The notes under the pieces are model-generated. The model searched no databases, was not told where the DNA came from, and worked only from the letters and a program-made list of their open reading frames with translations. Shown here piece by piece: positions 1 through 64,000 of a stretch of 64,000 bases of DNA. The stretch covers positions 310,001 to 374,000 of the forward strand of contig JAPTJF010000008.1 of NCBI GenBank assembly GCA_029339195.1, given 5' to 3'. The position numbers were made by a program, and so were the translations under genes. The stretch's first letter is position 1. Every line of letters starts with the position of its first letter. This DNA comes from Micractinium sp. NFX-FRZ (Eukaryota; Chlorophyta; Trebouxiophyceae; Chlorellales; Chlorellaceae).

Positions 1-111
1 TGCCCGCACCCCCCAGTGGTAGCACCTCGCACTGCCCCGTTTGCACCACACTCTCAGGTGGGTGCCGTGATGCCGCCCTCTCTTAGACCCTCCCCTTCCC
101 CCACCTGTTGC

Positions 112-141
112 CCCGCACACCTGTGGATCTGCCTCATCTGC
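112..141 (+). repeat. Intronic copy of the zf-UBP exon start
   Basis: This 30 bp stretch matches 211-240 at 29 of 30 positions. The single difference changes the acceptor CAG of the real exon to CAC. It sits in the intron just upstream of the exon it copies. Confidence 0.85.
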
Positions 142-217
142 AAGCGCAGTGGCTGTGCCTGCACCACCCCACCCTCACACCGTCCCCCCTCCTCCTGCCT
201 GCCTGCCTGCCCCGCAG

Positions 218-2812
218 ACCTGTGGATCTGCCTCATCTGCGGGCACGTGGGGTGCGGGCGGTACCGCGGCTCGCATGCCGCGGAGCACTGGCAGTCGAGC
301 GGGCACGGGTATGCTCTGGAGCTGGAGACGCAGGTGTGTGCGTGGCCCGGCATGTCCAAGAATTTGTGTGTTTACAATCAACAAGGCTGCAGCCCGGGAG
401 GGACAGCGTGAGCGTTGCGACTCATTGGACTGTCATCACATCCTCATGACTCAACTTGTGCAAGTCTGCTTTCCTGCTGTCCATGAGACTGCCAGCATCC
501 CTTGTGGAGCTACTGGATTGGCGCCCACGTGCACCTGGTAGCCCATGCTACTCACTTTCAAACATACCGTCCCCATGCCTACTTACGTGCGTGCCCGCAG
601 CGCGTGTGGGACTATGTGAACGACAGCTACGTGCACCGCCTGATCCAGAGCAAGACGGACGGCAAGCTGGTGGAGGTGGGCGGGGGGCGGGGGTGTATTC
701 TGTTTTGGGTGGCCTGCGCTTGGGGTGGCAACCGGTGTGGATGGCCTGCGCTGGGGGTGCATCTGGTGTGGGTGCGGCTGGGGGTGCATGTCTGCTATCT
801 GGTCTGGGCAGATGGGCAGGCCACGAGTTGGCAAGCCTTCCAGGGTGCCCAAAGTGCTGACAGGCTGCCGCGCAGCATGACAGGTAGGCATTCTGGAAGG
901 TGGGCTGCGGCGCAAGGGCAAGCAAGCACCGCTGTGGAAGTGTGAATTCAGCCGCGGCAGTGCCTGATGTTTCGTCCCTGTGAATCGGCCCACATGCAGC
1001 AGCACATAAGGTCTCAGCCTCTGCTACGCACATCCGCTTCCTCCCCCCGCAGGTGCCCTCTCCCGCGCAGCACAACCAGGCGGGGTGCAGCGGGCGGCCC
1101 CTCAGCAGAGCGGCGCCCTCAGGTGCCGCCTGGTTGGGCAACTGCTGCCTGCCTGCCCCGGCTGTTTCAAGAGTTGCCTGGGAGGATGCGTTGCAAGTAC
1201 TGCAGTTCTTGTTGCCATGAAACAAGTTGAAGAGTGCACCAGGAGTGTGTTGCGTTGCCCGCCAAGAGAGCCATCCAGGCAGTGCTGCGTGGTTGTGATG
1301 TCATCGCACTGATGCGCACGTCCGTTTCTTCTTGTCTGTACTGCAGAGTGCGGCAGCGAGCAGTGCTACCTTGACCCGGAGATGGAAGAGGCGATGGTGC
1401 TCAGGTGGGTTCCACGCGTAGCAGTCACCGTAACGCTTATCCAAACGTGGGTTGCTGTGGGGTGGGGCTGGCGCTGTTGCGGTGCGCACTAAATCAATGT
1501 GTCTTCTCCTTGTCTCAGACGTCAAATCAACACACTCTATGCCTTACCTCACCAATGGCTGACTGGCCATGCTGTGCTGTGCTGCCATGCTGTGCTGTGC
1601 TGTGCTGTGCCCTGCAGCAAGCTGGACGCGCTAGCAACAGAGTACAACCACCTTCTAGTGACACAGTTGGAGAGCCAGCGGTCTTATTTTGAAGGCCTGC
1701 TGGTGCGGCAGCGCACAGAGGCCGAGGCAGAGATGGAGGCGGCAAGCAGCACGGCTGGGCAGGCGCGCGATGCGGCGGCGCAGGCGCAGGCGGCAGCAGC
1801 GGAGGCGGAGCGGCGGCGGCGGCAGTTGGAAAGCAAGCTGGTAAGCAAGCAGAAAGTAGGTGCCAGGAAGGAGGTGGCTGAGCATGTGAAAAGCTGACGC
1901 ACATGTGTCGCCGCCTCTGTGTGGCTTTGCTGGCCAGGCTGAGAGGAGCCTCAGTTTTGCTTGAGGCATGAAACAAACATGAATCAATACATCCATTGAA
2001 AGAAACTCGTCACGCAAAATCTCCTCGCTGCCTGCAGGCCGACACCAACGGGCGGCTGGCTAAGGCGGAGGAGGAGCGGCAGTTCTTGAAGCAGCTGAAC
2101 GACACGCTACTAGCCAACCAAAAAGACTTCCAGGTACTGATAGCCATGGCACATTGTGGGGCGGCCTGCCCCGCCCCAGCCTCCCTTCCGCACACACGCA
2201 CACATGCGCACACTGGCACTCAACCCACGTGCCCCTACAAAATGTGCGCGCCCCTTTTGCAGGTGCGGCTCAAGGCAGCCGAGGAGGAGTTGAATCGCAC
2301 CTCGGCAGAGAAGGATGCGGCACTGCGGGAGCTGCAGGAGCAGGTGGGGGCGGCTGGCTGGGGCATCGGGCAGGCGGGCAGGCGTTGTGACCTAGAGCCC
2401 TGTGCGCTGCATGTGCTTCCCTGAGCTCTGTGCCTTGCTTGTGCCGACATGTCAGCACCACCAGCGGGAGCGATCTTGCAAGCGTGGGGATGCCGCTTTC
2501 AAGGGATGCCAACTGCAGGAGCAGGACATGATGGTGTTCTCGCAGGCGCAGCCAATTTTAAAAAAGTGCTCTGACTTGCGGTCAACAAGGCATCATGTCC
2601 CTCTCTTTATTAGCTACTTATCTCTTCCTCTATTTGCCTCTGTCATTTACATGCAGGTGCGGGACCTGATGGTGTTCCTGGAGGCGCGGCAGACGATAGA
2701 GCAGGCGGGGGCGGGCGGCGAGCTGGCAGGTGCCACGGTGCTGCCCGTCCCCGCGGCGGAGCTTGCCGGCGGGCAGGAGCATCGCGGCAGCAGGCGGGGG
2801 AAGAAGCGGTAA
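218..2812 (+). CDS. BRAP2-like E3 ubiquitin ligase, 3' part (zf-UBP plus coiled coil)
   Basis: Exons 218-333, 601-675, 1053-1122, 1347-1404, 1618-1840, 2038-2133, 2263-2343 and 2657-2812 join in frame to TAA at 2810-2812; upstream exons lie outside the window. The first exon encodes a UBP-type zinc finger ([20 protein letters not shown], followed by [10 protein letters not shown]). The next carries [15 protein letters not shown] and the remaining exons a long Glu/Arg/Ala-rich coiled coil ([20 protein letters not shown] onward). The C terminus is basic (RRGKKR). This order of zf-UBP, a short acidic insert ending near DPEMEEAM, and coiled coil is the C-terminal half of BRAP2/IMP (Arabidopsis BRIZ1/2), cytoplasmic RING ligases whose RRM-like and RING parts would lie upstream. 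The family assignment is firm; substrates cannot be inferred. Confidence 0.85.
2522..2553 (+). repeat. Decayed intronic copy of the last BRAP2-like exon start
   Basis: The copy reads ACATGATGGTGTTCT where the real exon at 2657 onward reads ACCTGATGGTGTTCC. Similarity extends about 30 bp with several mismatches. It lies about 130 bp upstream in the same intron and on the same strand. Confidence 0.7.
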
Positions 2813-2849
2813 CCAAGGGCCCTCGCTCATGTTTTGCACACTCCCCTCT

Positions 2850-2854
2850 TGTAA
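2850..2854 (+). terminator. TGTAA poly(A) signal of the BRAP2-like gene
   Basis: TGTAA, the chlorophyte polyadenylation signal, lies 38 bp after the stop codon. Confidence 0.6.
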
Positions 2855-3059
2855 TTCCCAAGCAGCAGGCTACAGGGGAGATACTCAGGACGGGCAGGGG
2901 AGGGGCAGGTTGATTGCCAGCAGGGCGGGCGCCATGGCCCGGCTGGCGGCGTCAGATGGGAGGGTGGCTGCGTCCCTGGGCTGCGCTTGCAGCCGAAGCG
3001 CGGAACCCAACAAGAGACCGCCAAGCAGCTACTATCAGCAGCACTTCTGAGAGGGACAA

Positions 3060-4398: not shown

Positions 4399-5036
4399 CG
4401 GAGGGCCGCCGGCGGCCCTGCTGCTCAGAGTTGTTTTGAGCTTACAGCCGTTGAGGCATGTAGCCGAGGCTCGCTGCCGCCGTGCAGTCGTGTATGATTA
4501 TGTATTGATTTTGTCGTGTCCTCCATCCCCCGAATTTTATGAAGTTTCCCCCGCTTTTCAAACTGTATCGCGCCGCTGCCTATCACACAGCTGCCCCCTG
4601 AAGTTTGTGTGCTTGTGCGCTGCACCCCCAACCATGACTGCTCACCGACTGCTCACCTCGCTGCTCACCTGATTGCTTTTAACTTTAACTGACCTGCTCT
4701 GTCCTCCCACCACCCCTACTTGCACCCATCCATACCGGCATGAGAGCCTGGACTTCTTTCCTGGCACGCCCCAAATGTGTGCCTCATGCACGATACTGTG
4801 CTGCGGAGGTTGGCCCCGGAATGGCCGCCCGCCGGTTCCTACGGCCGCCACTGGCCCCCTACCTTCCACAGCCTGCCAAGAACTTTGTGTCCTTTACATG
4901 ATTTGAATAAACTTAACAAGCCATAGCCTGCAAGTTGCGCGGTGCCTGTAATGGGGACAGGGGGCAGGTACATGGCGGCTACCGGGGGCCGCAAGCGGGG
5001 CAGGCCAGCACTGGTGTCGAGCGGGGCAGACTCTGA
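4399..5036. other. Convergent 3' intergenic region
   Basis: This stretch lies between the stop codons of the RING-CH gene (+) and RPA2 (-) and should hold both 3' UTRs. No coding exon is convincing on either strand. A minus-strand TGTAA is at 4894-4898, about 140 bp past the RPA2 stop. Confidence 0.6.
4894..4898 (-). terminator. TGTAA poly(A) signal for RPA2
   Basis: The plus strand reads TTACA, that is TGTAA on the minus strand, downstream of the RPA2 stop. Confidence 0.5.
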
Positions 5037-7375
5037 TCAGGTCCTGCGGGCGCGCCTGGCCTGCGGTGTCTCAGGTGGCGGCACCGCCCCGCCCCTGCCC
5101 AGCGCCTGCCGCTGCGCCGCCTGCCCCTGCGCCGCCTGCCCCTGCAGCGCCGCCGCGCGGCGCTTCCCTGGCGCAGCCGGCTCTTGCGTCCCAGGGCCCA
5201 TGGATGCTGCCCCTGCCATTGCCCCCCCCTCTCCCTTCCCGCCTGCCAGGGGGATCCCTGCGGCGGCTGCGGCGGCTGCGGCGGCTGCGGCCTGCTGCTG
5301 CTTGTGCAGCTCTGTGATGTGCCTGTGCTGGAAGATGCACTCCAGAAAGTGGAAAGTCACCTGCAGGAACACACACATGTGCAAGCATGGGGGGGGGGGG
5401 GGGGGGTGCAGCGGGTGGAGTGCAAGCGTGATGTCTGTGCGAGAGAAGTGCGGTTGGGTGGAAACGGAGGCTGCCTGTGCTGTGTGATGCACACTCTAGG
5501 ATAGATAGGAAGTGCGAGGTGTCCTGCGGTGTGGTGAGGTCCGGGGCGGGAGAAAGGGGGGCAGGGGAAGGGGCGGTGCGGTGTGCGGGCGGTGGTTCAT
5601 GTGCGGTGGGGGGCCTGAAGTGCGCAGTCATCCTCCTTGGTTCTACAGTAGAAGTAACTTCACCACAGAGTGGTCTGGGGCTTGGTTGATTCCTCCTCCG
5701 CGTCCAGCACCCGCACCACGAATGCATCACACGCCCACCGCCGACACCCACTTGCCTATCCACACCATCAAGCAGCAGCAGCAGCAGCCCTCGTAAGCTT
5801 CCCCTCCCCTGCCCCATGAGTCATGCTGGCTCCGTGGACCCTAAACGTGAATGGTCGATTGATTCACAAATGTAATCTGAGATATAAACAGCAGCCATCC
5901 ACTCCTTGCCTCATTGTAGTCTGGGGGCTGCGTTGATCCCTCCCCTGCCTCCAGCGGCCGCAGCACGAAGGCATCATACACGTACTGCCTGTCCAGGTCG
6001 GGCAGGCGCAGCACCATGACGCGCACGTACTGCCCCTCCCGTACCGCCTGTGCCCGGTCGTGCAGGGAGTCGTATTCTGGAGGGGGCAGGCAGGGGATGG
6101 AGAGGGGAGGAAAGGGGAGGGGAGGGGCAGGCACACAGTCGCGCTGCTTGGCAGAGGGCGGGAAGCAGAGCAGGGACGTGCTGTCGTGGAGGGCTGCACG
6201 CTCTGGGGGCAAGCAAGGTGAGGGAGGGGAGGGAGGGAGAGGGCGGGCTGACGCATGAAATGCGTCCCCCGCCCACCCCCAGCCACCCACCCACCCACCC
6301 AGCAGCCTGCGCACGGTCATCTGGCCGGTGCCGTCATCCAGCCGCATGTAGAAGATGTCCCTGCCTTCGGAGAACCACGCCTTCGCCACTTTGCCCACCA
6401 GCGTGAACTGTGGGTAACAGGGTGAGGCAGTTGGCAGCGGGACAAGGAAGAGAGTTCATGCGACAGCTGTCTTCAAAGGAGCCATGCCCTCACAACTCTG
6501 CCCACCAGCGTGGAACTGCAGGGGAGGCGGTAAGGGCTTGCCCCGACCACAACTGCGGCGCAGCACGCACAGCGTGCATGCCTCGCCGACAGAACCGACA
6601 GCGAGCCGTTCGATGGCTCGCTGCCCCCGAAACACAGACGAAAGCACAATGTGTTATGTAGCAAGAGTTGCAGCACGGCATGCACAGCGTGCAGAGCGCA
6701 CCTTGTCGGCGGCCAGGCCGTCCACGTGGATCATGTTGGCGCTTGGCTCCGCCTGCTCCGCCTCGCACAGCTGGCGCACTGTCACGGCCCGCAGCCCCGA
6801 CTTGGCTTCACCCTGGTCGAGAGAGAGCAACAAGGAATCAGGCCAGGCAAGAGGGGGAGCACACAGCAAGCGATTCAGTATTTAAACTAATCAAGGACAT
6901 GTCTGCACCGCCCGAGCAGCCGTCACAGTGAACCAGCAATCCACGGGAGCAGGCAGCACCCAGTACAGCTGTGAGCCTCGCCTGCGTGGCATTCTGGGTC
7001 AAGGAGCAGGCATGCTCCCTGCACAGTATCACATTGGAGCACAGCAAGCATGGAATTCTTGAGTAGCGTTGATTCGGGGCACCTGGCACGAGGGAAAAGA
7101 CTGGACGGCATGACGCAGGCAGGGCCGTCATCTTGTAACATGGCGCACTCGAGGCGGGGCGGGGAAGGGCCCCGCCGCGACCACTCCCACGGCCTGGGTG
7201 GTCATAAGATGAAGCGGCCTCCACGCAGCTGCGCAGCCCCCACCCCTTGGCCCCAGCACAGGGGGAAAGCAAGGCAGCCTAGCCAGGAGAACATGGCAGC
7301 ATCTGGGTTGGGCGCTCACTGAGCCTGGGTTGTAATGAAGCCGCCGCCCAGCAGCTGCGAAGCTCCCGTCTCCAT
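5037..7375 (-). CDS. RPA2: Replication protein A 32 kDa subunit
   Basis: Exons in coding order are 7375-7320, 6812-6702, 6407-6299, 6076-5910 and 5360-5037. The N terminus is Gly-rich (ASQLLGGGFITTQA). It is followed by LRAVTVRQL and the OB-fold (FTLVGKVAKAWF, IFYMRLDDGTGQMTVRR, GQYVRVMVLRLP, YVYDAFVLRPL), then VTFHFLECIFQH as in plant RPA2. This is the single-strand DNA-binding subunit of the RPA trimer, used in replication and repair. The intron after DYNE has a GC donor (GAG|GCAAGG), supported by both phase and homology. The junction from exon 1 to exon 2 does not match in phase with a GT donor, so a micro-exon or unusual donor may be missing. The last exon is Ala/Gln-rich and stops without the usual C-terminal winged helix. 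Confidence 0.85.
5389..5406. repeat. 18-bp G homopolymer in an RPA2 intron
   Basis: Eighteen consecutive G on the plus strand read as a C tract about 30 nt upstream of the RPA2 acceptor on the minus strand. It may act as a pyrimidine tract and is prone to sequencing error. Confidence 0.85.
5663..5733 (-). repeat. Decayed copy of the RPA2 OB-fold exon end
   Basis: On the minus strand this reads DAFVVRVLDAEEESTKP before a stop. The real exon (5910-5983) reads DAFVLRPLEAGEGSTQP. The copy lies about 180 bp downstream inside the following GC-AG intron. Differences are mostly conservative, so it decayed slowly or was once coding. Confidence 0.85.
6487..6512 (-). repeat. Copy of an RPA2 exon-3 acceptor edge
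   Basis: TGCCCACCAGCGTG is shared with the exon 3 edge at 6391-6404, followed by a CTGCAG-type acceptor remnant. It lies in the intron upstream of the exon. Confidence 0.6.
7192..7241 (-). repeat. Decayed copy of the RPA2 exon-1 end
   Basis: About 50 bp resemble 7323-7367 (GCCTGGGT, ATGAAGC and CAGCTGCG are shared in order). On the minus strand the copy contains a stop. It lies in the first intron, about 130 bp past the exon. Confidence 0.75.
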
Positions 7376-8173: not shown

Positions 8174-11100
8174 TTACGCAATGCCGTCCTCGAAGAAGCC
8201 GTCCCAGGTTGACTTGCCGTTGTCGTCCAGCAGTCCCAGCCGCTTCAGCCGCCGCTCCGCGTAGTACTCCATGCCCGACAGCCTGCAAACAACAACACAA
8301 ACACGTGTGCTGATCTGGGTTGTGGTTTGGCCTGTTTTGCCCTCCAAGCAGAGCAGTCGCACGCCCATCCGCCGCCACCCACCCAAACACACCCAGTCCT
8401 CAAACATCATCGCAGCGCGGCATCCCCTCTCCCCCACTTCCCCTCTATTGGCTCCCCTCTGAGGCAAAGCACGCATCGCAGCATCGCCACTTCCGTTGTT
8501 GTGTCACTGGCCCGCAGAACCCACGGAACCCACCTGCCGATGCGGTGCTCGAAGACGCGCAGCGCAACATGTCCTCTCCTTCTCTCCCTCCCTTCCCAGC
8601 CTCACTGCGACCGCACCTTTGCTTTCACTGGCCCGCACAACCCACCCACACCCACCTGCCGATGCGGTGCTCGAACCCGTTTAACCCTGCAAGCAAAGCA
8701 GTCGCCCACCCATCTTGCTAGCACCCACCAACCTACACCCACCTGCCGATGCGGTCCTCGAAGAAACGCAGCGTGGCGTCCAGCGCCTCCTTCTCCCCCA
8801 GCCGCACGCGCACCGCCTGCTGCAGCCGGCTGCCCGGCGCCAGGCTGCTGCTGCAGAGCGTGGCGGGGCGCGGGGGCAGGGGGCGGCGGCACACAGCACC
8901 GGTCAGCGTGCCAGGTCAGCAATACAGCTGTAGCTGTACGGTGTTGCATGCACCACATGCACCCTTCCTCTCACGTCCTTCACAGAAGGTAAGTGCATCA
9001 CCATGAAACAGCAGGCATGATGACTCACCCTGCCAGAATGGCCAGGTCCTCGTCAATCGAGGTGGGGTAGGCCGCCAGCGCAGCGCCGCACCCGTCGATG
9101 ATTTGCTGCACATGGGGGCAAGCCAGCGACAGCGGCCGCGTCAGGCAATGCATACGGCACAGCAGTGCACGGAGGCATTGAACGCCGGCACCAGTCAGCA
9201 ATCATCAGCTTGCTGCCGAGTTTGGGGGAGGCATCGGCTGCACTGCTTTGGACGTCTGTAGAGGAGGCCGCCAGCAGGCCGGCAAGAGGCAGGGCAGACA
9301 GCGGTCGAGAGCACCGCCCTGCACGCCTGGCAGCTGCTCCACTCGTCCTACTGAATGCTGCTCCACTAGATGCACCCCATGCAACCACCCTCTCGCCCGC
9401 GCTCTCCACAACAGCACAGCACCGCGGCACTACCAAAAACAAAGACAGCGCACCTGGTAGCAGCCGCGCTCGTTGTCCTCGGTCACCGGCAGCTGCATGT
9501 GCTCCCACACCTCGTTGCGGAAGATGGACTCCAGCAGGAAGGTGTCTGCGCCTGCAGGCACAGCACAGTTGGAAGCACATGTGACGATGCAATCGGAGTG
9601 TGGGCAGCTGCACGTGCTCCACACCCACAGCTTGTTAAAGGACAGTATTGGACTCAAGCAGGAAGGTGTCTGCGCCTGCAGGCACAGCACAGCAGGCACA
9701 ACACAGCAGGCACATTAGCACTGAGCGTGTGACACCAGGTGGCATGGTGGATTTGTCGCTGCTGGTTCTGACTCCAGCAACAAGACTGCGGGCACACGCA
9801 GCCCCACACCGGCGGCAGGCCAGCCACCTCTGCGGGTCTGCAGCGCGCACGGCCCCGCTTGCCTTCTTCCCAGTGCACCTTGCAACTTGAGCGGGCATAG
9901 CGCGCGCAGCAGCTGGCATGCAGGGCGCAGCATCCGCCGCCGGCCAAGCCCCCGCCAACACATCCCGCCCCCGCCCCTACCTTGCAGGTTGAGCAGGCGC
10001 AGCGTGGGCAGCAGCTGCGCGTCGGGCGTCGCGTCCGCGCGCAGCACAAACTCGTTGGCCTGCTGCAGCCCGTTGAGCTCCAGCACGTCCAGCTTATCGT
10101 CGTGGTTGCGGTCCTCCCCCCGCAGCTCCAGGGTGAGGGCAAAGCCGGCCTGCGCAGGGCGGCAAGAACGAATAATGGCGTATGAGCAACGAGAGGGAAG
10201 GAGCAACTGCCAAGCACGCCCGGCTTGCGGTCGTGGTTGGGGTCCTTCCCCCCGCAGCTCCAGGGCGAGGGCAAAGCCGGCCTGCAGGGGTAGCATGCAG
10301 ATAGATCAAGGTCAACTGAGCAAACGCAGGGAGTACAGAACCCTCAAGCACGACTAAACTGGTGGGTCAGAGTTGAGGTCCTGCACACGGACTCAGGCAA
10401 AGGCGGGCTGTGGAGGGCGCAACGAAGGTAGCAAGGAGGGCAGCTGACGGCACAGCATGCGCAGCGCGCGTAGCAGGCTATCTAGCCCGGCATGCCAGCC
10501 CTCCCTCTTGCTGCCCCCCCCCCCCCACACACACACACTCCGCCACCCCACCGCCGCCTGCCCCACCCATCTCCCCACTCTTCGCACCCGGTTGACCAGC
10601 GGGTCCAGCACTCCATGATCCACCAGCAGCTGCCCATCTGCAAGCAGTACAAGATGGGACAGGGATCAGACGCTTCACAAAGAGGTGACAGGGTGCGCAT
10701 GCCTGGATTGACAGGTGGGTGCGGCATGCACCGCTTTGCCACCAGCAGCAGCCCATCTGCAAGCAGCAACAACAGCGAGCCAACGGAAGCTAAGCTAGAT
10801 GCCAACCACGCAGCCCAGGCTGGCTTGCCTGCCTTGCTGGGGGCGGAATCTGCGCATGAAGACAGGCAGGCCCTGGTACCAACAAGCAGGCGCCCAATAA
10901 GAGGATCGGCGCCCTGCTTACCAGTCTTGTCAGCCCCAAAGTCCATCACAATCGGCTCGCCAGCTGACATGGCGTCTGACGCCTCCATGACCACAGCAGG
11001 CGTGCCGCCCGCGCCAAACAGCCCGCCCGCCTGCTTGATCTGCCAGCCGGCGCTGCGGCCGCCGCGCTGGTGCTGCGTCTGCGGGGCAGGGCAGGGGGCG

Positions 11101-13115
11101 CGGCGCGGGGGCGCAGCGGGCGCAGCGTGGGCATGGTGAGGAGTGGTGCACGCTGCGCCCTTCCGCCGCAGGCATGCATGCAAATGGCAGCGCGTGCACC
11201 AGCTGACCATCCAAGGATGCAGGCAGGCAGGCACGCCACACCGGCTGCAGGCATTCTTGCGATCTAAGCAGCCTGGCCACAGAGCGTGCCGACGCCTGGC
11301 AGGCGCGCGCCGGTCTGCCAGCGTCGCAAACGTGCGATGCTGCCGCATGCCGTGCGCATGTGGCGCACCATGTGCAATGAAGTGCAGCAATAGCTGCCTC
11401 AGAAGGAGCTCACCATGTCTGCCAGCGGCACCAGCGCAATGTTAGCGCCGTCCAGCGGGGGGTGGGCGCGGGAGCGCACGGTGCACGCCGCCCACAGGAA
11501 GGCCTCAAAAGTGAATACTGCACGGGGGGGGCAGCCACCGCGAAAAGGTGAGCCGACCTGCCAGGCTGGGCTGCCCAGAGGAAGAGTGAGGGCTGCGGGA
11601 CCGGCACCACGAAGGCATGCAGGCAGGCTGGGGCACGTCGACCAGCCACAACCCGCAACATCGAGGCTGTCCTGGGTGCAGCGCCAGGGCTCTTGGGTGC
11701 GCAAGCTCACAGAGGCCAGAGCCGATGGCAGTAGGATACCTGTGCACCTCATGCCAGCCTGGTCTGGTCAGTCACACAGCTTTCCACAGCGAGGCATGAT
11801 GTGACCCACGCTCCGCCCGCCTACCTGACGGGTCAAAGGTCTGGCGGTTGGGGCCAAACAGCTCTGCCTGCAGCTGCTCGTACCGCTGCTGGAAGTAGGC
11901 CCTGCAGCGCAGCAAGCAATGAAACAACACACAGCCGCTATTCAGCACGCAGCACGTAGCACGGGCAGCTGCTTGTAGCGCCGGTGGAATTACGGCCTAG
12001 AGCAGAGGGTAAGCAAGGGCGCAGCACAGGCAGCAGGATTGGCAAGAGATCGTCGGCGCAAGCTCCCGCGCCGCTGCTGGAAGTAGGCGTGCAGCAAGCA
12101 GCACAGCGCACCACGGCGCAGCACAGGCAGCAGCACGATGGGTGCACAGGGACACGTCAGCAGCTGGGTGCTCCTCTGCCCCTCCCGTCCCCTGCCTATG
12201 ACTGCCTACAAACTTTGGCGCACCGTGCCCCTGCACCCATGGCCCCCAAGCCACCTGCCCGCACCTGTAGCCCTGCACCGTGCCCAGCAGCTGCGAGCCT
12301 TGCAGCACCTCTAAGTCTGCCTCCCCCCACTGCACCGGGCTGCCGCTGTCGGCGGGCAGGGCGGCCAGGTAGGGGGCCCACCGGCTGGCGGCGCCCTTGG
12401 CCCGCTCATGCAGCAGTAGCAGGGCGATGGACAGCCAGGGGTCCAGCCTGCATGCAGGTCAGCGGTGTGCGTTGCGCTGCGTTGCGTTGCATGGCGTGGT
12501 AAGGTAGTGGGTGCTGCGGGGTTGCAGCGTGGGTGGCGAACTGAGGGCAGCGCCGACGGGAGGAGCGCAGCTGCGTGCAGGAGCTGCTGCAGGCTGCCAC
12601 CATGCTGGCATGTGCACAGAGCAGCCGAGCATAGGTGGTGCAGGTGCTGCAGCATGCTGCAGAGCTGTGCACCATGCCAAGAAGTCTCTCCCCGGCACCT
12701 GCCCGGCACATGCAGACCGCCTGCCGCACGGGTTGTCACACACGGCACATGGAACGCACCCGGCCAGGTGCTGCCCAATATCCGACTCTGCCGCTGTCTG
12801 TGCTGTGATCCAGGTGGCCTCAGGGATGGCGAACAGCTGCTCCCCCTTGTTCACCGCACGGCTGCACACCAGGCCGCCGCCAGCGGCGGGCGCCGCCGCC
12901 TGCTTGGCCACGTCCACCCCCGCCGCCGCCAGCCAGGAGCTCACGCCCTCCAGCTGCTGCGCCGTGGCTGCGGCCACCCGGAATTGTAGAGCATCCTGCC
13001 GGCGACCAGCCGCTGGGCGAGCTTGGCGCTGCGGCGCGATGGGGCGAGGTGTGCGAGGCTTGGCAGCGGGGCCCGAATGGGCGGCCTGCGGCCGACCCTG
13101 AATGGTCAGCATCAT
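8174..13115 (-). CDS. Plastid-type SET-domain protein (Rubisco LSMT / pTAC14 superfamily)
   Basis: Eleven exons join in phase to 495 aa: 13115-12760, 12447-12265, 11901-11825, 11517-11414, 11078-10922, 10637-10588, 10149-9981, 9551-9454, 9105-9029, 8850-8743 and 8282-8174. The N terminus is Ala/Arg-rich, like a transit peptide. The body follows the Rubisco/aldolase lysine methyltransferase family: RAVNKGEQLFAIPEATWI, FTFEAFLWAACTVRSRA, LVPLADM, then the LSMT C-terminal domain (DDKLDVLELNGLQQAN, LLPTLRLLNLQGADTFLLES, EYYAERRLKRLGLL). The core NHS motif is replaced by T241-Q-H. The DYG motif that carries the catalytic Tyr is D299-H-G. A non-catalytic scaffold like some plastid nucleoid SET proteins is therefore possible. 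Membership of the superfamily is firm; the subfamily is inference. Confidence 0.85.
8531..8560 (-). repeat. Copy 1 of a SET-gene exon/donor edge
   Basis: CACCTGCCGATGCGGT matches the exon end and donor at 8740-8755. The flank CACTGGCCCGCA upstream is shared with copy 2, so the repeated unit is roughly 120 bp. Located in the following intron. Confidence 0.85.
8651..8677 (-). repeat. Copy 2 of the same SET-gene exon/donor edge
   Basis: CACCTGCCGATGCGGTGCTC is shared exactly with copy 1. The real edge differs in one base of this stretch (GGTCCTC). Three near-identical potential donors therefore lie within 220 bp. Confidence 0.85.
9604..9693 (-). repeat. Decayed copy of a SET-gene exon head and acceptor
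   Basis: This stretch aligns with 9488-9568. GGAAGGTGTCTGCGCCTGCA and the following GGCACAGCACAG are identical, while the inner part has indels. Minus-strand reading starts ADTFLLES, as in the real exon, then stops. Confidence 0.88.
10216..10290 (-). repeat. Decayed copy of a SET-gene exon head and acceptor
   Basis: This stretch aligns with 10083-10157. CCCGCAGCTCCAGGG and GAGGGCAAAGCCGGCCTGC are shared. The minus strand reads AGFALALELRGE where the real exon reads AGFALTLELRGE, then goes out of frame. Confidence 0.88.
10738..10768 (-). repeat. Copy of a SET-gene mini-exon acceptor edge
   Basis: GCCCATCTGCAAGCAG is shared with 10632-10647, where the 50-bp exon starts. The copy is about 110 bp upstream in the intron. 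Confidence 0.65.
12066..12098 (-). repeat. Copy of a SET-gene exon head
   Basis: CCGCTGCTGGAAGTAGGC is shared with 11883-11900, at the head of the real exon. It lies 180 bp upstream in the intron. Confidence 0.75.
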
Positions 13116-13379: not shown

Positions 13380-16300
13380 ATGAGTGCACCTCCAGCTCCC
13401 GCACAGCGCCCCCTGACGGGCGACTCTGGCTACAAGCGCTTGGTCCGCCTCCTGGCCCGCGCGTTTTACGCCGGGGAGTGCCCGCCCAAGGAACCGGAGC
13501 CCGACGATCTGCCGGCAGGCGCACGGACAGTCCGCAGAGACAAGGTGGGTACACCAGGGCGGCGGCCGCCATATGGCGGGCACGTGGGCTGCGTCTTTGC
13601 CCCCACTTGGTGTTGCTGGCCCGCAGCCCACACCTGACGCCTCCCTGTGCCGTGCAGAACGACTACATTGGCTTGGGCGTGCTGCTGCTGGATCTGCTAG
13701 CAGCGGCACATGGCTACGTCAAAGACGTGGCCATCACCGGCCAGCTGGGCGTGTCTGGCAAGGTGGCCAACCGAGCTCTGCGCTACCTGCAGGCTGAGGG
13801 ACTGCTGATGTCAGGTGGGAGGGTGGATGTGGGTGGGTGCTGGGCACGGGAGGCAGGGGATGCGCAGGCGCAGCAAGGCAATCCAGCCCAACCCTGGCTG
13901 CTCATGAAGCCTGCTCTTTCACTGGCCTTGCGCCTGCCCTCCCTCACCTGTCCCTCCTCCCTTGCCTGCTTTGCTTGTTGTGCAGAGGTGGCGAGGATCA
14001 ATGTGCGCAGGCAGCACCACGGGCTAGCGAGCTTTCCTGAAACCCGGCTTTCATTTTCCTGCCTGTGTGCTGTGCAGAGGTGACCAAGACCAAGGTGCGG
14101 AGGCAGAATGTGGAGCAGCCAGACGACCCGGAGCTGGAGCAGCGCATGAGCCAGATGACAAACACCTGGTGGTAAGAATGCACAACTCATCTTACCTGTT
14201 ATTGAGCGCCCAGCTCAGCATGCTGCTGCTGGCGCTGCTGCTGCTGGTACATTGTCAGCTGCCGTCGCTGCCACTGCTGCCACCGCCACTGGTGCTGCTG
14301 CTGCTACCGCTGCTGCTGCGCTCCACTGCCTGCCGCCTTCCCAGCCCGCTGTGTTGTGCCGGCAGCCCAGGCTGCTTCTGTTCACCCAACCTCTGCAGCT
14401 GCTTCGTCTGCTGCTACTATATGTAAACATGCGCTTGTGCGTGTTCTGCACCTGTCGCATACGCCGTCGATCCGCACCCTGCGCTGCCCGATTTCGTTCA
14501 ACAACCTGCCTCACGCAGTCCATGTGTGCATTCCCCACGCCTCCTCCAGGTGCGTGTCCTACCCCGCGCTCATGGACTCGCTGCAGCTGCGCCTGCACCG
14601 CATGCGGGAGGTGCTGCGCAAGCACATGGGGGACGGGGACGACGTGCTGGTGAGGCAGGGGGGCTTGCATTGGGGATGTTCTCAGGGTGAGGGGCTTTGC
14701 TTTGCAAGGATGGGTCGGCTCTGGCGGGAGCACATGGGGGATGGGGATGATGATGTGCCGCTGAGGTGGGGGGCCTTTGCAGTGGGCGAGCTTGCGGTGT
14801 GGTGGAAATGGTCTTGCACTCAGTGAGGGTGGTTGCAGCGATGGGTCAGGCTTGGCAGCACCAGCGCATGGGTGCTGCACGAGCACAATTGGGGGTGACA
14901 TGCTGGTGGGTGGGGGTGGCGGTCCCTGAGGGAGCCATGTAGGTGCATTGGGGTCTGCAGGGAGGGCGGGTGCATGCGCTCGGGCCCGAAGGACGCACTG
15001 GGGGCATGCTTGGGCACACCTTGGGCCTGTAGGGGAGGCAGTGAGTGCGTGGCCACCCACCCTCTCTCACCCCTGCCTCCTGGGCTGCCCCATGCGCTGC
15101 TGCACCACCGCAGGACTACCTGTGCCGGCGGTGCGGGGCCACCTACACGTCCCTAGATGCCATCCGCCTGCTGGATCCCATGACCGGGGCCTTCCACTGT
15201 GAGGAGTGCCGCGCTGAGCTGGACGCCAACGTGGACGCAGCAGGCTTGGCGGGCGCGGCGGGCACGGCGGCGGCGGGGCCCGCGGCCAGCCGGCAGCAGC
15301 TGCAGCAGTACGCCAAGCGCATGCTGGAGAAGATGGAGCAGCAGCTGAGGCCTGTCCTAGGTGGGTGGGTGGGTGGGTGGATGAGGAGGCAGAGCAACAG
15401 GTATCCGGCTAGGTGGGCGGGGGGGTGGGTGGATGTAACAGAAGAGCTGCCAAGGCACATCCTGGGTGACGTCGCCGACTTATGCTGCTGCCCGCTGCTG
15501 CCTGCTTGCTCGCTTGCCGCCTGTTTGCCGTCTGCTTGCCTGCGCGTGCTGGGCAGATGTAGCGGCAGCTGACGCATGCGGCGGCTGCGTGACTGGGTGT
15601 GAAACGTCAGGCAGGCGCTGTGGCCCATGCTAGCTGCATGTGCTGCTCGCTTGTGCTTGCTGCTGCCTGCTTGCTGTCGCTCGCCTGCCCGCCGGTGTGC
15701 ATGCGTGCATGCAGCCAGTGGCTGGCCTCAACCTAGCAGCAGACAGTCGGAAGGAAGCAGGAGCGGGCGGTGCTTCCTCGTTCTCCCTCCTGCACCCTTG
15801 CAGTCCCACTGTGTCTGCCCCGGCCTCAGGAATGTGTCTCTGAAAGCCTGCCTGCTGCAGATCAGTTGGAACGGCTCAAAGACGTGCCGCCGCCAGATTT
15901 TGGATCCCTGCGGGTAAGCCTCGGCCTGCGGGCATCTTGCCTTGCTGTAGCCTGTTGCAGGCAGGCGTGTTTGGCAGGCGCGTTTTGCAGGGGTGTGTCT
16001 GCAGGCGTGTTTGGCAGGCGCTGTGTGCTGTGACTGTGCCTCAGCAGGAGCATGACGGCCGCTCAGCAAAGCGTGGTGCCGACCTCACCCTGCTACCCTG
16101 ACCTGCCCCACAGGACTGGCACCAGAAGCAGCACGACTTGCAGCGGCGGCGGCAAGAGCAGGCGGCCAGGGCGCGGCAGAAAATGGCTGGGCGGGGGCTA
16201 GCGCAGGTGGGTGGCTGGACTTTGCTCACCTTCCACAGCGGGTTTGAAGGCAGCGAGGGGTGCACACGCATGCGGGGTGGCGGGATGGGCACTATGCTGC

Positions 16301-48269: not shown

Positions 48270-48274
48270 TGTAA
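48270..48274 (+). terminator. TGTAA poly(A) signal of the receptor kinase
   Basis: TGTAA lies 51 bp past the stop codon. Confidence 0.65.
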
Positions 48275-50762: not shown

Positions 50763-50793
<31 letters not shown>

Positions 50794-52868: not shown

Positions 52869-53270
52869 TGAGGGCCAGCAGTCTGCAGCCTCCCACTTAG
52901 TGCCTCCCCAACACGACGTGTCAAGGGTGCCGTGGCCTTTGGGCCCGTGGCCCCATCAGCCCCTCACCTGCCACTCCCCGTCACTACACTTGTACCACCA
53001 CATGCGCTGTACCCTCTCTTGAATGACTTACACCCGATAATTTGTCTCACTGCAATGAATGCCTGCCGCCAGTGTTGGCATGCGCATCTGCGTCGGCGCC
53101 GCCGCCGCCAGCGAGGTACAGCCTCCCGAGTGCAAACTGACGTCAATCCTGGGAGGCCTGATTGCATTGAATAGTGTACTCTCCCAGCTCGCTATCCTCA
53201 GCAAGCGCCCCGCGGCCTCGGCAGCTGGCACCGCCCGCTTTCTGTTCGCAGCCAGCAGCAGCCCGCCGCG
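52869..53270. other. Intergenic region UBC9 to RanGAP
   Basis: About 400 bp hold the UBC9 3' UTR and the RanGAP promoter. No gene seen. Confidence 0.5.
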
Positions 53271-56200
53271 ATGACTGTGGAGGAGTGGGCACTGAGCGAT
53301 GCCCAGCGCCAGGAGACGGTGCAGCGGGTGGCCAACAACATTTCGGGCATGGCCTTCTTCAGGAACTCGCCCATCGCCGACGACGTGGTCACCGCAGCGG
53401 CGGCGGCCATTGAGAAGAAGGCCTACACGGTGGCACGCGTGGAGGCGCGCACCACCACCGGCGTCAGGTAGGCGGCGGCGGCGGCAGCACCCAGCTTGAC
53501 ACGTCGGCCCCTTTGCCTGCCCAGCTCGCCCACAAGCATCATGTCGCTGTGCAGCACAACACCTGCATGCTCTGCGCCACGCTGGTCTTGTTGCAACCAG
53601 TGCGGCAGCCCCGCCCACTCCAGCCATCCTCCTGGCCTTGGCACAGCACCCACGTCTCCACTGATACACTCCCCCGCGCCTCCTCTGACACGCCTCACAA
53701 CGAGACATTATACATAGAGCGTCTCTGGATCAGGATGGGCTTCACCGTGCAGGCCGTAACTTGAGACGCCGAAGGCGTACATCCGCAGTTGCAAGCACGC
53801 TTGCCCTGGGAGTAGTGCAGACTTCCCTTGCCCAGTGTGCCTCCTCCTGTTGTGCAGGCCTCACCACGAGACCCTGAAGGCCTACATCCGCAAGCTGAGC
53901 GCGCTTGCCCTCGAGGTGGTGCAGACAGGCGGCGCGCTGGAGGGAGCGGGGGGCGGCGGCAAGGCGCAGGGCGAGGTGCGCACAGCGGGCGGGGAGCCGT
54001 GCAGGCAATGGAACTGGAGCCAGCATTTGTTGTGTTGAGAGGAGCCCCACCCGGTCCACGGCAGCTGGCCCCTGCAGCAGCCTGTGCCTGGCAGCGCTGC
54101 CGCTACACCTGCTGCTGCCAGGCTGCTGTCCGCTCTTGCTGCTGCGCCACCATACGGCACAACAGCCACACGGCCCGCCGCTGCAGCTGGCCCCGACAGG
54201 CAGCAGCTCGCCCTTGGCCTGGCTGCTGCACTCAAACTGCAAGCAGTGAAGCAAGGCAGCAAGCAATGTCCCAAGACTGCGAGCAAGTGGGCCCCTACTG
54301 CCGCAGGAGGTGGACCTGACCGGGAGCCGTGAGTTTGTGACGCGTGAGAGCGCGGAGGAGCTGCTGGCGCCCATGCTGGCGCCCGGCGCCAAGATCAGCA
54401 AGGTGTGAGGATGACAGGAGGAAGGGAGAGCGTTGGGTGTCAGGGGAGGGAGAGAGCAGAGGGCACTAGGTCAGTACCAGGGTGGGCGTGGGAAGAGGGA
54501 GAGGATTGGGGAAGAGGAGAGAGGGGGTGGAGAGAGGAGCCGCTGGCGCCCATGCTGCGCACTGGGGTGAGAACCAGTGCTGCAGTGCGGTCTCAGTCAG
54601 CACCCAGAGCTCCGGAGACAATCCCGCTGTGTGCTGATGGAATCTTGCACCAATGCATCCCGCTGTATTGATGGCATTTCCAGATCCGGTTCAGCACCAA
54701 GAGCTTTGGCGTGGAGGCGGCCGAGGTGGCGGCCCGCGCCATCGAGAACATGGCTGGCTCGCTGGTGGACGCCGACATGAGTGACATCATTGCGGGGCGG
54801 CCGGGTGAGATGTAAAGCAGAGTGCGGATGATGCGTGCACGTGTTTGGCACCTGGCACGCTGCGCGTGGGAGAGGAGCCCCAACCATACATGCCCTCCCC
54901 GTGCTGTGCTCGCTGCGCTGCAGAGCACGAGGCGCTGGCCGCGCTGCGCATCATCAGCGCGGCGCTGGGCAAGGCGCGCCTGCGCCACCTCAACCTCAGC
55001 GACAACGCGCTGGGGGAGAAGGGCATCCGCGCTTGCGCTGCCGCCTTTGCCGAGCAGGTGCGCATGTCTACCAATCCATACTAGTTTGGTGCTCTTGAAC
55101 ACCTTCCTGCCCTGCCGCCGCCGGCCTGCCCCGCTCTGGGTGGACGGGATGTGAGTGTGCTCTTGCTGCTCTTGCCGAGCAGGTGTGTTTGCTGCTCACT
55201 GTGTCGCCTGGGCAAGGCACACCGCACCTCCCCTCTGCGGCACACTTTGACGGTCGACACCTGCCTGCCCTGGCCACCCCTTGCATTTGCTTCCCACCTG
55301 CCCCCTGCCTCCCATTACTCACATAGTGCAAGAGTAGGCCCTTGAACGCATGGCTTTCCTCAACGTGGGCTGCCCCTCCCGCCCACCTCTTCCACTTCCC
55401 CCATTCAATGCCACCCCCTGCTTCCCCCGCACATACTCACCCATGCACGCCACCCTTGAGCACACGGCTGTCCAAAATGCCGACTGCTACTCCCACACCA
55501 CTGTTCCAACCACCGTTCTGCCCGCTTCCCCCGCCTTGCCCCGGCGCAGGAGGCCCTTGAGAGCATTGCTTTCCAGAATGTGGGCTGCTCCGTGCACGGC
55601 TGCGCCGCGGTTGACGAGCTGATGGCCAACACGCAGCACCTGCGCCGCCTGCACCTCTACAACAACATGAGCGGCGACGAGGGGGCGGCCTCCATTGCGC
55701 GGTGGGTGCTCTGGGCGTGTGCCTCTGAGTGCGGCCCGCGTGGCGGTGTGGGCTGTGCAGTGCACTGGGTGCTGCTTATGTCACTGCCTCCCCCTGGCAA
55801 CCTGCTAGGTTACTGCCTCGCTAGGGTATCCCGCCCAGCTCTCCCCGTCCCTCCTCTCTCACGCACCATTTCGTTGCACCTGCCCTGCCCCTCTGCAACC
55901 CTGCCGCCCATAGTAAGGAACTCGTAACTCCACCCCCTCCCCCGCCCCACCCACCCCTGGCTCCCCCTCTCCTCCCTCCACCCCCGCAGGCTGCTGTCCC
56001 GCTGCCCCGCCATGGAGGACTTCAAGATGGTGTCCAGCCGGGTGGGCGCAGAGGGCGGCGTGGCGCTGGCTAAGGGCCTGGCGGCAGGTGGGGCGTGGGT
56101 GCACCCTGCTGTGGTTGGGCAGCGTGGGGGTCAGTGCACAGCGTGGGGCGCATGGCACAGGGCAAGGGCCTGGCGGCAGGTGGGGCGCGGGAGAGGGGGA

Positions 56201-60094: not shown

Positions 60095-60594
60095 GGGGGA
60101 GTGGTGAGGCAAGCGCCAGGCAGCAGCCGCCCTGTTGTTCCACAGCTAGCTGCCCCCCTGAAGCACCCCCAGCCAAGGTGCTGTGCCAGCAACCTGCCCT
60201 GCCTCTGCCTGCTTGCCCCACAAAGTGGAGCTTGCCGCGGCTGGCACCCATGCCGATCGCTGCCCAGCTTATGCACAGCATCACCGCTCACATTATGCAA
60301 TGACATTGTACAACAAAGCACCCCCTGCCTCCTCTCAAGGGTTCGGCCAACGTCGCCTCCCTATAAAGCTGCTCTGTTCAACACATGTTACATGCTCTTG
60401 GCAGCACGAACAGGCATGCAGCAGCAGCAGGCAGTGAGCGCGCCCCGGCAGCTGGGAACAGTCGGCGTGGCGTGGCCATCCACACCGTGCCTAGCACGTA
60501 CTTGAGCCTCGGTACTGCCAACTGGCTTGGCGCCAGCAACGCCCCCCTGGCTGGAAGCGATGCCTGTATCGCTGGCCGACGTGGTGCCCACTGC
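60095..60594. other. Convergent intergenic region
   Basis: The region lies between the stop of the small secreted protein (+) and that of cactin (-). A minus-strand TGTAA is at 60388-60392. No gene seen. Confidence 0.5.
60388..60392 (-). terminator. TGTAA poly(A) signal of cactin
   Basis: The plus strand reads TTACA, about 200 bp past the cactin stop. Confidence 0.45.
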
Positions 60595-63500
60595 TCAGCG
60601 CCTGTAGCGCTGGCGCTTGAAGTTGAAGTAGAGGTGCAGGATGCCGCGCTCAAACACGCACTTGAAGCCGCGCTTGTGGTTGTACTCCCTGCAGGGGCAA
60701 GGCAGGGCGGGGCAGCACGGAAGTTGTCAGGCAACGGGCCTGATGGCAGGGCCACACTTGAAGCCACGCTTGTGGCTGTACTCCCTGCGGGCCCGCAGGG
60801 GCAAGGCAGGGCGGGGCAGGGCGGGAGGCTTGGGTCACATTTGAAGCCGCGCTTGCGGTTGCACTCCTGGCAAGCCGCAAGGGGTCGTCCTCGGATGGGC
60901 GCACAGGCGGGCAGGCAGGTCACAGCCCACACCCATGGCCCTCCTCCACCCCGTCCACCAACAGAGGGTATACACCGCCTGTGCCCACGGCTCACCACTC
61001 CTTGTTGATGATTTTGAAGGCCAGGTCCTCGTAGGGCGGCCCCGCAGTGAAGCGCAGGATGCAGGTCTCGCCTGCAGCGGGGGCAAGAGGGGCGGGGAGG
61101 AGGGGCAGGGAGGGCAGCGGGCAGATGGGGACGTGAGGAGGGGGTGGCAGGGCAGGGCAGGGTGGGGGCACCAGGGAGCCGACCCCCCCCACTGCTGCAG
61201 CCCCGGCATCGCGCATGCGGAGGGGGCAAGGAGGGCAGCGGGCACGGGGTTCCGGGCGGCACGGATGGGGGTCATCCCGGGTCGCCTGCTCTTGCCCAAC
61301 CACATACCCCGCCTCCCACGACTCGCTGTCTCACGCTCAACCCCATCTGCGCACCGCGGTACAGCGCAGCGAAGCGCAGCGCAGCACAACACAGCAGCGC
61401 AGTTCGCGTCGGCAACACTTTCAACCCAGCAGGCACAGCAGGCGCAGCGCACCATCTGTCGAGGTGGGGTCCCGATCGATCTTGTATGTGGGGGCCACCG
61501 TCTTGTCCAGCAGCTCCGGGTAGAAGATGTTGAACTTGTAGCCCTGCAGAAGAAAGGGGGTGAATCAAATACAGACGGCAATCAATACATGGCTGCTTGA
61601 TAGGCGGAAGGCAGGCACCGCCGTGTGCAGCAGCCCTGGGGAAAAGATGTTGAACGTGCAGCCCTGCGGGAGGGGGGACCCGAATATTGATGAAGGGTTA
61701 ATGCTCAGGAAGAAGGGGCCACAGGCAAAAGAACGGTGAGGTGTGTGTGCACGCCCACCCACCTGCACCGTCTTGGGGGGCGGGTTGTCGCCGTCGTAGT
61801 GCGTCTGGTTGTACTTGTTCCACTCGTACCCCGTGTGCACGCGGTTGAAGTACTTGGGGCGACGGGGGCGGTACTTCTCGTGCCACCAGTAGACCTGTGT
61901 GGGGCAAGTAGTAGCAGAAGAAGATGAATGGAAGGAGATGAATGGAAGGAGATCAGCATGGGCCCCAAGCAGGGCGCAGATGCCCTCATCGCCCCTCTCC
62001 TCCCCTCTCCTCTCCTGTCCCCCCTCTGCACCCCTCTCCTCTCTCCCGCTCCTCTCCCCCCACCTGCGAGTCGCTGTCCAGCCACCCCATGCACAGCACG
62101 TCGCCCACCCCCCTTGCCCACCTTCCCACCCACCCACCCTCCCCCCACCTGCGAGTCGCTGTCCAGCTGGACCTCCCCGCCAAATGCCACGTCCCCTCAT
62201 CTCCCTTCCCACCCACCCACCCACTGCACTCCTCTCCCCTCCCCCACTCCTCTCCCCTCCCCCACTCCTCCCCCCCCCCCACCTGCGAGTCGCTGTCCAG
62301 CTGGACCTCCCCACCAAAGGGCGCGTCCCCAGAGGTGCCCAGGTCCCCCATCATGCGGTCCGCCACCTTCAGGAACTGGTCCTCGCCCGGAGCGGGCTCA
62401 GCAGGCGCCTGGGGGAGGGAAAGGGGGCAGAGGGGAAAAGTTGGGGGTTTTGCAGCGTGGGTAGAGCAAGCACACACAGTGCGGCCGCCAGCAGAGCAGA
62501 GTGCATGTGCTGCTTTGGCAGGGCACACCGGAGGCGACACCCAACGCAGGCAAGCGGGCAGGCAGTCCCATGCGTGCTGGCGGACTCACCGCCCCCGCCC
62601 CCGCGGCCGCCGCCGCCCCGCCAGGGCCGGCGCGTGCCCCGCGCCCGCCGCTGAGCGGCGCCGCCTCCGCCAGGAATCGGGTGGCCGAGCCGCCGCCGCC
62701 AAGCACGCGGTGCGCCTCTGCAGCAGAGCACAGGAAATGGGTGGGCACCAGGGGAGCATGAGCACAGGCGCGAGCGGTGGAAAGCACAGGCAAGAATGGC
62801 CAAGGACGGTCCAGCCCAGAGTGCGAGCAAATGCTTCATGGGAATGCGCTGGCTGCTTTGGAGGTCCGTGCAGACCGGCCAGGCCTCAGCGCGCACGCAC
62901 ACCATGCCAGGCGGCACACTGTCTCATGTACCGCCCCGGCAGCCTGGACGCACCTCCGGGGCGCGCCATGACGCGTCTGAAGATGCGGTCCGCCTCGGCC
63001 TGCTTGGGGCGCGCCGCCGCCTGCGCCGCCGACACCTCGCTGTACCGCAGCGCCTCCTTGTACTTGATCTGCAGCCAGGGCAGAGGATGGGCACAAACAG
63101 GGCATGGCGCAGCTGAGCGGGGCAGCAGTGAGTGCGGCGCAAGAGCAGGTGACGCCTTGTAGCAACGCAGCGCCTTCCTTGCACCTGTGCTGCATCCAAG
63201 GCCGGGTGGGGTGTCAAAGCATCCTTGCAAAACTGATACACGTCTTAAGCCGATGCAGGCACTCCAAGGAATCTGCCTGTGAGACTGTATACTCTCCTCC
63301 TTTTTATGTCTCAAACAACACCAGCTTGGAGCAACAGAAGCAGCAGCACCGCCACCACCACCGCCACCACCACTACCACCAATGGAGGCTGTGCCTCACC
63401 TGTGCCCGCATCAGCTCCAGCAGGCGCGCGTCCTCCTCCTCCGGGACCACATCCTGCCCAGCATACGCCGTGGGCGGCAGCGGCAGCGGGGAGTAGGCGC

Positions 63501-64000
63501 CCGGCTCGCGGTGCTGGCCTGCGGGCGGGCAAGCCAAGCGGGCGGGCAGGGTGGGATGGCAAGGCAAGGCACCGTGTTGGGGTTGGGCATGGGCAGGCTT
63601 TGATCAAGTTGCCACAGGTTGCTCATCAGTGCCAACACAGCGTTAAAACAAAGCTTTCGCACATGGGCCGAGCAGCAGCAGCAGCAGCCAGAGGCCCAGA
63701 GCGCGAGCATAACACCAACGGCACGAGTCAAGCCATCCGCCCATTGGCCCCTGCAGCCAACAACAACAGCAACAACGCTCGTCAGCCTTGCTCACCGTCG
63801 TGCTCGTCATCTGACAAATCCTCCCAGCTGCGCGGCTCGCCCCGCGCCGCCTCCAGCAGCCGGCTCTCCTCCGCCGCCGCCGCTGCCGCTGCAGCGTCCT
63901 CTGGCGCCCCAGCCCCTGCTGCTGCCGCCGCCGCTTCTGCTGGGGGCCTGGCCAGCGCCAGCAGCTCTGCATCCAACTCAGGCTCTGGTGCCCCCTCCTC
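60595..64000 (-). CDS. CACTIN: Cactin, C-terminal part (cut at window end)
   Basis: Exons in coding order are beyond 64000 to 63796, 63518-63400, 63068-62954, 62717-62590, 62408-62283, 61894-61763, 61543-61453, 61071-60996 and 60688-60595, all in phase. The C-terminal cactin domain is very well conserved: WWHEKYRPRRPKYFNRVHTG, EWNKYNQTHYDGDNPPPKTV, GYKFNIFYPELLDK, ILRFTAGPPYEDLAFKIINK, GFKCVFERGILHLYFNFKRQ and the end RYRR. Upstream are Glu/Ala-rich segments (SWEDLSDDEHDG, RLLELMRAQIKYKEALRYSE). Cactin is a nuclear spliceosome-associated protein required for accurate splicing. The gene itself has many short exons with repeated splice edges. The N-terminal half, including the mid domain, is outside the window. 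Confidence 0.94.
60756..60875 (-). repeat. Two copies of the last cactin exon head
   Basis: CACTTGAAGCC, CGCTTGTGGTTGTACTCCCT and GGGGCAAGGCAGGGCGGGGC at 60660-60713 recur at 60756-60815 with few changes. A shorter copy lies at 60839-60870. Both are upstream of the real exon in its intron, giving three potential acceptors. Confidence 0.9.
61617..61678 (-). repeat. Copy of a cactin exon head and acceptor
   Basis: AAGATGTTGAACGTGCAGCC and the following CTGCGGGAG mirror AAGATGTTGAACTTGTAGCC at 61524-61543. The minus strand reads GCTFNIFSPGLL versus GYKFNIFYPELL in the exon. It lies about 110 bp upstream of the exon. Confidence 0.9.
62068..62183 (-). repeat. Two copies of a cactin exon end and donor
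   Basis: CACCTGCGAGTCGCTGTCCA, the donor edge of the exon at 62283, recurs at 62070-62089 and 62147-62166. The second copy extends to AGCTGGACCTCCCCGCCAAA, almost as in the exon. All three carry the same donor. Confidence 0.92.

Follow-up and report, generated by a model that had tools for sequence, protein, structure and literature searches.

The question raised by this locus is why so many of its introns hold a short, same-strand copy of the edge of the exon beside them. The window, meaning the whole 64,000-nucleotide stretch analysed here, runs from base 310001 to base 374000 on contig C8 of a Chlorella-like genome (66 Mb, 838 contigs), and a first-pass annotation of it had described such copies, here termed exon-edge echoes, in at least ten of fifteen genes and had ascribed them to tandem duplications across the splice junction. 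Short direct-orientation duplications at splice junctions, with a period of ~115 bp, probably lengthen introns while leaving the protein unchanged, and the echoes that they leave behind decay neutrally.

Echoes were counted in a 338-kb sample (~0.5% of the genome, 33 places with introns), consisting of the window, 20 stretches of 10 kb from contigs C1-C7 and C9-C21, always taken at the same position, 5 further stretches, and 7 of 8 kinase loci, which make up 7 of the 33 places and have few introns. Gene models were produced by a splice-aware exon-intron hidden Markov model self-trained on the sequence, and were checked against proteins for two genes of the window, one Rubisco-LSMT-like (71-76% identical to proteins of Micractinium tetrahymenae, Chlorella ohadii, C. 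sorokiniana and C. variabilis) and one RanGAP-like (86% identity to a database protein). The trained splice signals were AG/GTGAG-type donors and TGCAG/ acceptors (slash, splice site), with a median intron of 245 bp in the sample. Locus L005 overlaps L001 (631 introns with L005, 625 without), and was still included in the 40-bp edge counts and the cross-intron comparison. The main echo count used a gapped search with a score of at least 16, a complexity filter on 20-bp cores, and reversed introns as control. An earlier echo set, in which the complexity filter was applied to whole alignments and discards long ones, held 90 edges versus 95 in the main set, and the intron-continuation, position-wise identity, head/tail side, exon-exon, between-sequence, run-barrier and pair-offset counts rest on this earlier filter. 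Introns <150 bp, in which an echo was often made into a small exon by the gene finder, were excluded from the far-site distance, flank composition and simulation tests, dropping 9 of the 95 echo edges.

A same-strand copy in the adjoining intron was found at 95 of 1250 exon edges (~7.6%, about one in thirteen), compared with 2 when introns were reversed. These edges (52 donor, 43 acceptor) were spread over 88 introns, and 22 of the 33 places with introns had at least one. In the window, 28 of 240 edges carried an echo, in 8 of our 11 gene models; the wide spread first reported was thus recovered, and extends beyond the window, with a different count of genes. Self-BLAST of the window at offsets of 50-300 bp returned 29 same-strand and 0 opposite-strand pairs. 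When 40-bp exon edges were compared with their own intron at a score of at least 15, 27/508 donor and 33/512 acceptor edges matched, with no antisense matches at either kind of edge, no matches to length-matched other introns (0/2032 donor, 0/2048 acceptor), and few for exon interiors 40-80 bp in (5/423 donor, 2/433 acceptor). Exon heads matched the upstream intron in 38/495 cases and the downstream intron in 1/495, while exon tails matched the downstream intron in 37/495 and the upstream intron in 1/495. The first-pass annotation had placed donor copies downstream and acceptor copies upstream, on the same strand, and had proposed comparing edge copies with exon-interior, other-intron and opposite-strand controls; strand and side are as it described, and the comparison, made on the 338-kb sample, gave an excess at edges.

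Some echoes were called as small exons by the gene finder, and an N run lies beside a copy in one stretch (L009), as might be expected if the echoes were an artefact of assembly, low complexity or gene finding. With antisense, reversed-intron, other-intron and wrong-side controls near zero, and with decay that is graded (below), this explanation is extremely improbable; in addition, a genome search made for dating found neither a second haplotype nor a paralogous intron for the LSMT-like gene, only 36-48 bp matches elsewhere.

The echo offset had a median of 115 bp (middle half 97-136) and the match reached 16-72 bp into the exon for the middle 90% of echoes, roughly in keeping with the distances of 50-250 bp and sizes of 25-90 bp noted earlier. 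Match rate fell with exon depth from 32/600 at 0-20 bp to 16/568 at 20-40 bp and 1/523 at 40-60 bp on the acceptor side, and from 30/589 to 13/564 and 6/503 on the donor side. Expressed as percentages, exon positions 0-20 matched at 5.3% (acceptor) and 5.1% (donor), intron positions 5-48 bp off the junction at 1.0-1.7%, and mid-intron positions at 2.1%. Intron-internal pairs were present in 54 introns at a score of at least 16 and in 14 at a score of at least 30 (edges, 95 and 21), and local duplication is therefore not restricted to edges; such pairs are not judgeable by the reversed-intron control, because reversal preserves them. Exon-exon pairs stood at control level (3 vs 5 at score 16), which would follow if duplications within exons were purged, although this is a weak test. 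Under a length-biased filter, pair offsets were mostly 25-75 bp for intron-internal pairs (46/91) and mostly 75-150 bp for exon-intron pairs (82/123). At L011:6803-7279 (minus strand), four extra copies of one acceptor edge form a ladder at offsets of 108, 220, 316 and 435 bp; their intron parts are in part the same, and the ladder reflects repeated events at one junction.

The protein is unchanged where it could be compared. No copy was translated at the 10 echo-bearing edges of the two checked genes (6 LSMT-like, 4 RanGAP-like), 9 of which were cleanly colinear with relatives, and the splice site in use there is the one nearer the exon, as had been proposed. The LSMT-like model aligned lengthwise with three full-length relatives and one partial relative. 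The exceptions were gaps among the first 100 alignment columns, two residues inserted in one relative, and 7 additional residues at or next to a doubtful exon. Five of its six echo edges were cleanly colinear; the sixth is the acceptor of exon 10588-10637, whose intron lies next to that doubtful 21-bp exon, predicted at window 10829-10849 (minus strand), which goes with the 7 residues missing from four relatives and is probably false. The RanGAP-like model was colinear with P0068 and P0069 at all four of its echo-bearing edges. In P0070, predicted from another alga, 39 additional residues fall precisely at one of these four edges, junction 54402/54684, which would fit the annotation of a decoy or of a retained intron end.

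The echoes act as neutral relics. Mismatch rates at the three codon positions were 0.138, 0.150 and 0.152, offset remainders modulo 3 (0, 1, 2) numbered 33, 25 and 37 and so ignore frame, and 28/90 alignments of the earlier echo set contained an indel. Exon-part identity spans <0.75 to 1.0, and decay is therefore graded, as anticipated. Splice dinucleotides were intact in 58 of 82 junction-reaching echoes (AG in 28/41 acceptor and GT/GC in 30/41 donor echoes), which bears out the decoy splice sites predicted earlier. Such retention could be read as selection for functional decoy or alternative splice sites, yet the dinucleotides are preserved only about as well as adjacent positions (earlier echo set), mismatches are spread without regard to codon position and offsets follow no reading frame, and we regard selection of this kind as very unlikely. 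A coding or alternative-exon role for the echoes was rejected, there being no codon-position or frame signal.

Intron lengths indicate what happens at the junction. Introns with an echo had a median length of 321 bp, versus 232 bp for those without, and the share with an echo was 3/107 at 150-200 bp and 25/68 at 400-1000 bp; below 150 bp it was 9/88, some of these introns being shortened by the gene finder calling the echo an exon. Measured from the echo's splice site, the splice site at the other end of the intron lay at a median distance of 224 bp (n=86; 95% interval 202-265), versus 234 bp for ordinary introns (Kolmogorov-Smirnov p=0.75). Because this distance equals an ordinary intron length, the gain per event appears to be ~115 bp, made at the junction, in line with the intron growth first predicted. 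Composition was similar: the G-over-C skew of intron beside donor echoes was 0.183, with 0.177 at real donor flanks and -0.004 in distance-matched intron, and beside acceptor echoes it went 62% of the way to real flanks. The sequence between exon edge and echo shares this skew at donors, the best-preserved copies included (0.228, n=14; real 0.151, mid-intron -0.019); acceptor skew was lower, 0.114, in the five best-preserved cases (real 0.246). Lengths and composition favour junction duplication over an inserted stray copy, and support growth of the intron by the full offset.

The stray-copy alternative is a copy-and-paste event, in which, during repair of an intron break, a polymerase would copy 20-70 bp of the nearby exon edge and leave the intervening ~75 bp of intron untouched. 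It predicts a remaining distance of 166 bp, which was rejected against the 224 bp seen (p=6e-7), and it expects the intron next to the echo not to be splice-like in composition, which also fails; as the main process it therefore does not hold, with single cases possible. What speaks for it is the inner structure of the duplicated unit. Match ends are sharp, two exon-interior copies have no splice site, and position-wise identity drops from ~0.82 in the exon to ~0.38, the background, by 10 bp into the intron, at donors and acceptors alike. Among the 14 best-preserved echoes, 9 have a between-sequence that is unlike either flank. Against the exon beyond the copy (13 of the 14), one clear match (p=0) and one weak match (p=0.065) were found, and against the intron beyond the echo (12 of the 14) three were found at p<0.05, one of them owing to a third copy. 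No second genomic copy was found for the between-sequences queried (six LSMT-like, three elsewhere), in a search that skips simple repeats and very common words. Intron homology continuing beyond the splice consensus, present in 36% of 81 echoes versus 8.6% of same-intron controls (earlier echo set), is left unexplained by copy-and-paste, which we hold to be distinctly unlikely overall.

The same structure weighs against duplication at the junction in its simplest form. A matched intron part of at least 20 bp lay beside the echo in 15% of 86 cases, versus 66-73% in simulated uniform-age junction-spanning tandem duplications; at exon identity of at least 0.9 it was found in 4/29, versus 79-89%; and a simulation with intron parts evolving 3x faster still gave 28-29% overall and 43-48% at exon identity of at least 0.9. 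Matches covering at least 80% of the offset numbered only 4/95. While 82 of the 95 copies reach the junction, the other 13 end >3 bp before it (11 donor, 2 acceptor) and are therefore without the splice site that the copies had been described as carrying, and two best-preserved echoes (L018:6376+ and window 54403) end 24 bp before it. Together with the nine unlike between-sequences, all of these count against the duplication reading. Uniform neutral tandem duplication was rejected on the simulation and on an exon-to-intron drop in match rate that is sharper than predicted. A plain tandem duplication would copy the unit's intron part, which is usually missing even beside well-preserved copies, and junction-spanning tandem duplication is therefore unsupported as stated: strand, side and lengths agree with it, the intron part mostly does not. 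Most of the earlier model stands, and its interpretation is partly supported.

The missing intron half could reflect gene conversion, filler DNA or copying tied to the junction. Under gene conversion, the duplications would be old tandem ones whose exon-edge part is kept alike by repeated conversion from the constrained exon, while the intron copies drift apart. This would account for the ordinary length of the intron behind the echo and for its splice-like flank, for high exon identity without intron homology, and for the mixed identity inside one unit at window 9525-9692, where the between-sequence in part resembles exon interior. Converted tracts would be expected to extend over the whole exon copy, yet matches drop fast with exon depth, and gene conversion appears rather unlikely. 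Equally tentative is a duplication tied to the splice junction itself, which would copy the exon edge and mostly stop ~10 nt into the intron at donors and acceptors, so that a step coupled to splicing or transcription, such as breakage or a stalled polymerase at splice sites, would drive stepwise intron growth by repeatedly placing a further intron end outside the previous one. A G-run or C-run barrier was tried as a trigger and rejected, donor echoes having no excess of runs (p=0.74, 0.81) and acceptor echoes slightly fewer C runs (p=0.01).

In the explanation that we consider probable, a local direct duplication with a period of ~115 bp would arise at a splice junction, and the spliceosome would go on using the site nearer the exon body, perhaps because the inner site wins through exon definition; it is this continued use that would make junction duplications tolerated. 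The old junction would be stranded as an exon-edge echo ~115 bp deep in the intron, which would lengthen by about one period with the protein the same, and the echo would decay neutrally. The mutational step may mainly be tandem duplication in end-joining repair of staggered breaks, with the unit's intron part then lost by rapid turnover, by conversion of the echo from the exon, or because filler was inserted in repair. We infer that the process is general in the clade.

Internal gene duplication, reported by Gao and Lynch in 2009, is said often to create a new intron. The echoes can be rated a form of it, as in-place, same-strand duplications within one gene that include exon and intron, differing by growth of an existing intron: here no new intron seems to arise, what is duplicated is the exon edge, splicing keeps to the inner site and the intron lengthens, with proteins colinear with relatives. 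Tandem genomic duplication has been described as an intron source (PMC3443670; PMC2891723, Lehmann et al. 2010; PMC4974935, as far as the excerpts of these papers go). In the excerpts of the first two, as here, duplication is direct and beside splice sites, the mRNA is unchanged and one copy turns intronic; there, the new intron stems from a duplicated exonic AGGT and has the length of the duplication, whereas here an existing intron is lengthened and the edge lies ~115 bp inside. Small tandem duplications from staggered-break repair (PMC8355091, excerpt) are also short, local and direct, as are the echoes at their median of 115 bp, but comprise a complete head-to-tail unit, whereas here, in most units, homology lies mainly in the exon part. 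Introners (PMC9860276, excerpt) likewise make insertion-like intron changes flanked by direct repeats; their target site duplications are given there as 3-9 bp, while the repeats here are 20-70 bp of exon edge and no element common to the cases was found.

Same-gene direct repeats on both sides of intronic sequence would suit intron gain by introners or by duplicated exonic AGGT. No introner family was seen, however, the 40 listed of 81 cross-intron hits being five whole L001/L005 introns and otherwise matches of 21-95 bp, and no second genomic copy of the between-sequences queried was found in the search that skips simple repeats. Nor do introns consist of one duplicated unit running from a downstream-exon start to an upstream-exon end: the far-site median is 224 bp, matches of exon-1 tail to exon-2 head are at control level (7 vs 9), and echoes do not generally begin at the opposite splice site. 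Such intron gain is accordingly a highly improbable source of the echoes. Among the literature matches listed, judged by title and abstract start and with subscription papers mostly outside, none described exon-edge copies as a general process.

Lengthening of introns without transposons is, to our knowledge, little documented. Here a record of growth can still be read at ~7.6% of exon edges, giving its direction, step size, degree of decay and decoy splice sites, and both intron growth and the choice between two near-identical splice sites become directly testable by comparing relatives of Chlorella. The intron half that the unit lacks poses a concrete puzzle as to how the mutation occurs.

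Table 1. Exon-edge copies in the window, with window coordinates and offsets in bp.
Feature	Span	Strand	Copy	Exon edge	Offset	Remarks
Acceptor-edge echo	109-240	+	109-141	208-240	99	97% over 33 bp; intron clipped by window edge, outside the 28
Acceptor-edge echo	2514-2690	+	2514-2552	2652-2690	138	Score 21.5
Donor-edge echo	5670-5979	-	5670-5732	5916-5979	247	Score 29
Acceptor-edge echo	6372-6518	-	6479-6518	6372-6410	108	
Donor-edge ladder, Rubisco-LSMT-like gene	8504-8773	-	8625-8675, 8504-8564	8737-8773		Intron 8283-8742; protein colinear with relatives
Acceptor-edge echo	9525-9692	-	9649-9692	9525-9568	124	43/44 identical
Donor-edge echo	9877-10017	-	9877-9915	9979-10017	102	Same intron as echo 9649-9692
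Acceptor-edge echo	10082-10285	-	10213-10285	10082-10153	132	90% over 72 bp
Acceptor-edge echo	10620-10766	-	10739-10766	10620-10647	119	Intron adjoins doubtful 21-bp predicted exon
Acceptor-edge echo	11883-12103	-	12071-12103	11883-11914	189	
Acceptor-edge echo	13976-14106	+	13976-14014	14068-14106	92	
Acceptor-edge echo	46707-46901	+	46707-46752	46855-46901	148	25 bp of intron match too
Acceptor-edge echo, RanGAP-like gene	53747-53926	+	53747-53822	53852-53926	105	Protein colinear
Donor-exon copy without splice site	54355-54557	+	54534-54557	54355-54378		Exon part ends 24 bp short of junction; colinear with P0068, P0069
Acceptor-edge echo	55333-55591	+	55333-55376	55548-55591	215	Protein colinear
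Donor-edge echo	56058-56191	+	56150-56191	56058-56099	92	Protein colinear
Acceptor-edge echo	61496-61667	-	61616-61667	61496-61547	120	
Donor-edge ladder	62054-62330	-	62283-62330, 62149-62196, 62054-62081			Part of middle copy called small exon by gene finder

In the gene at window 60595-64000 (minus strand), which we take to be of the Cactin family, two echoes were retained as small exons by the gene finder, and the predicted protein therefore repeats QLDSDS and HKRGFK; the true splice choice there is uncertain. Head-to-tail arrays were seen in predicted introns at window 36604-36776 and 20683-20843 (units of 55 and 51 bp), unlike the spaced exon-edge copies. The trained donor matrix implied GC in place of GT at roughly 7-8% of donors in the sample, a share that is high beside values for other eukaryotes.

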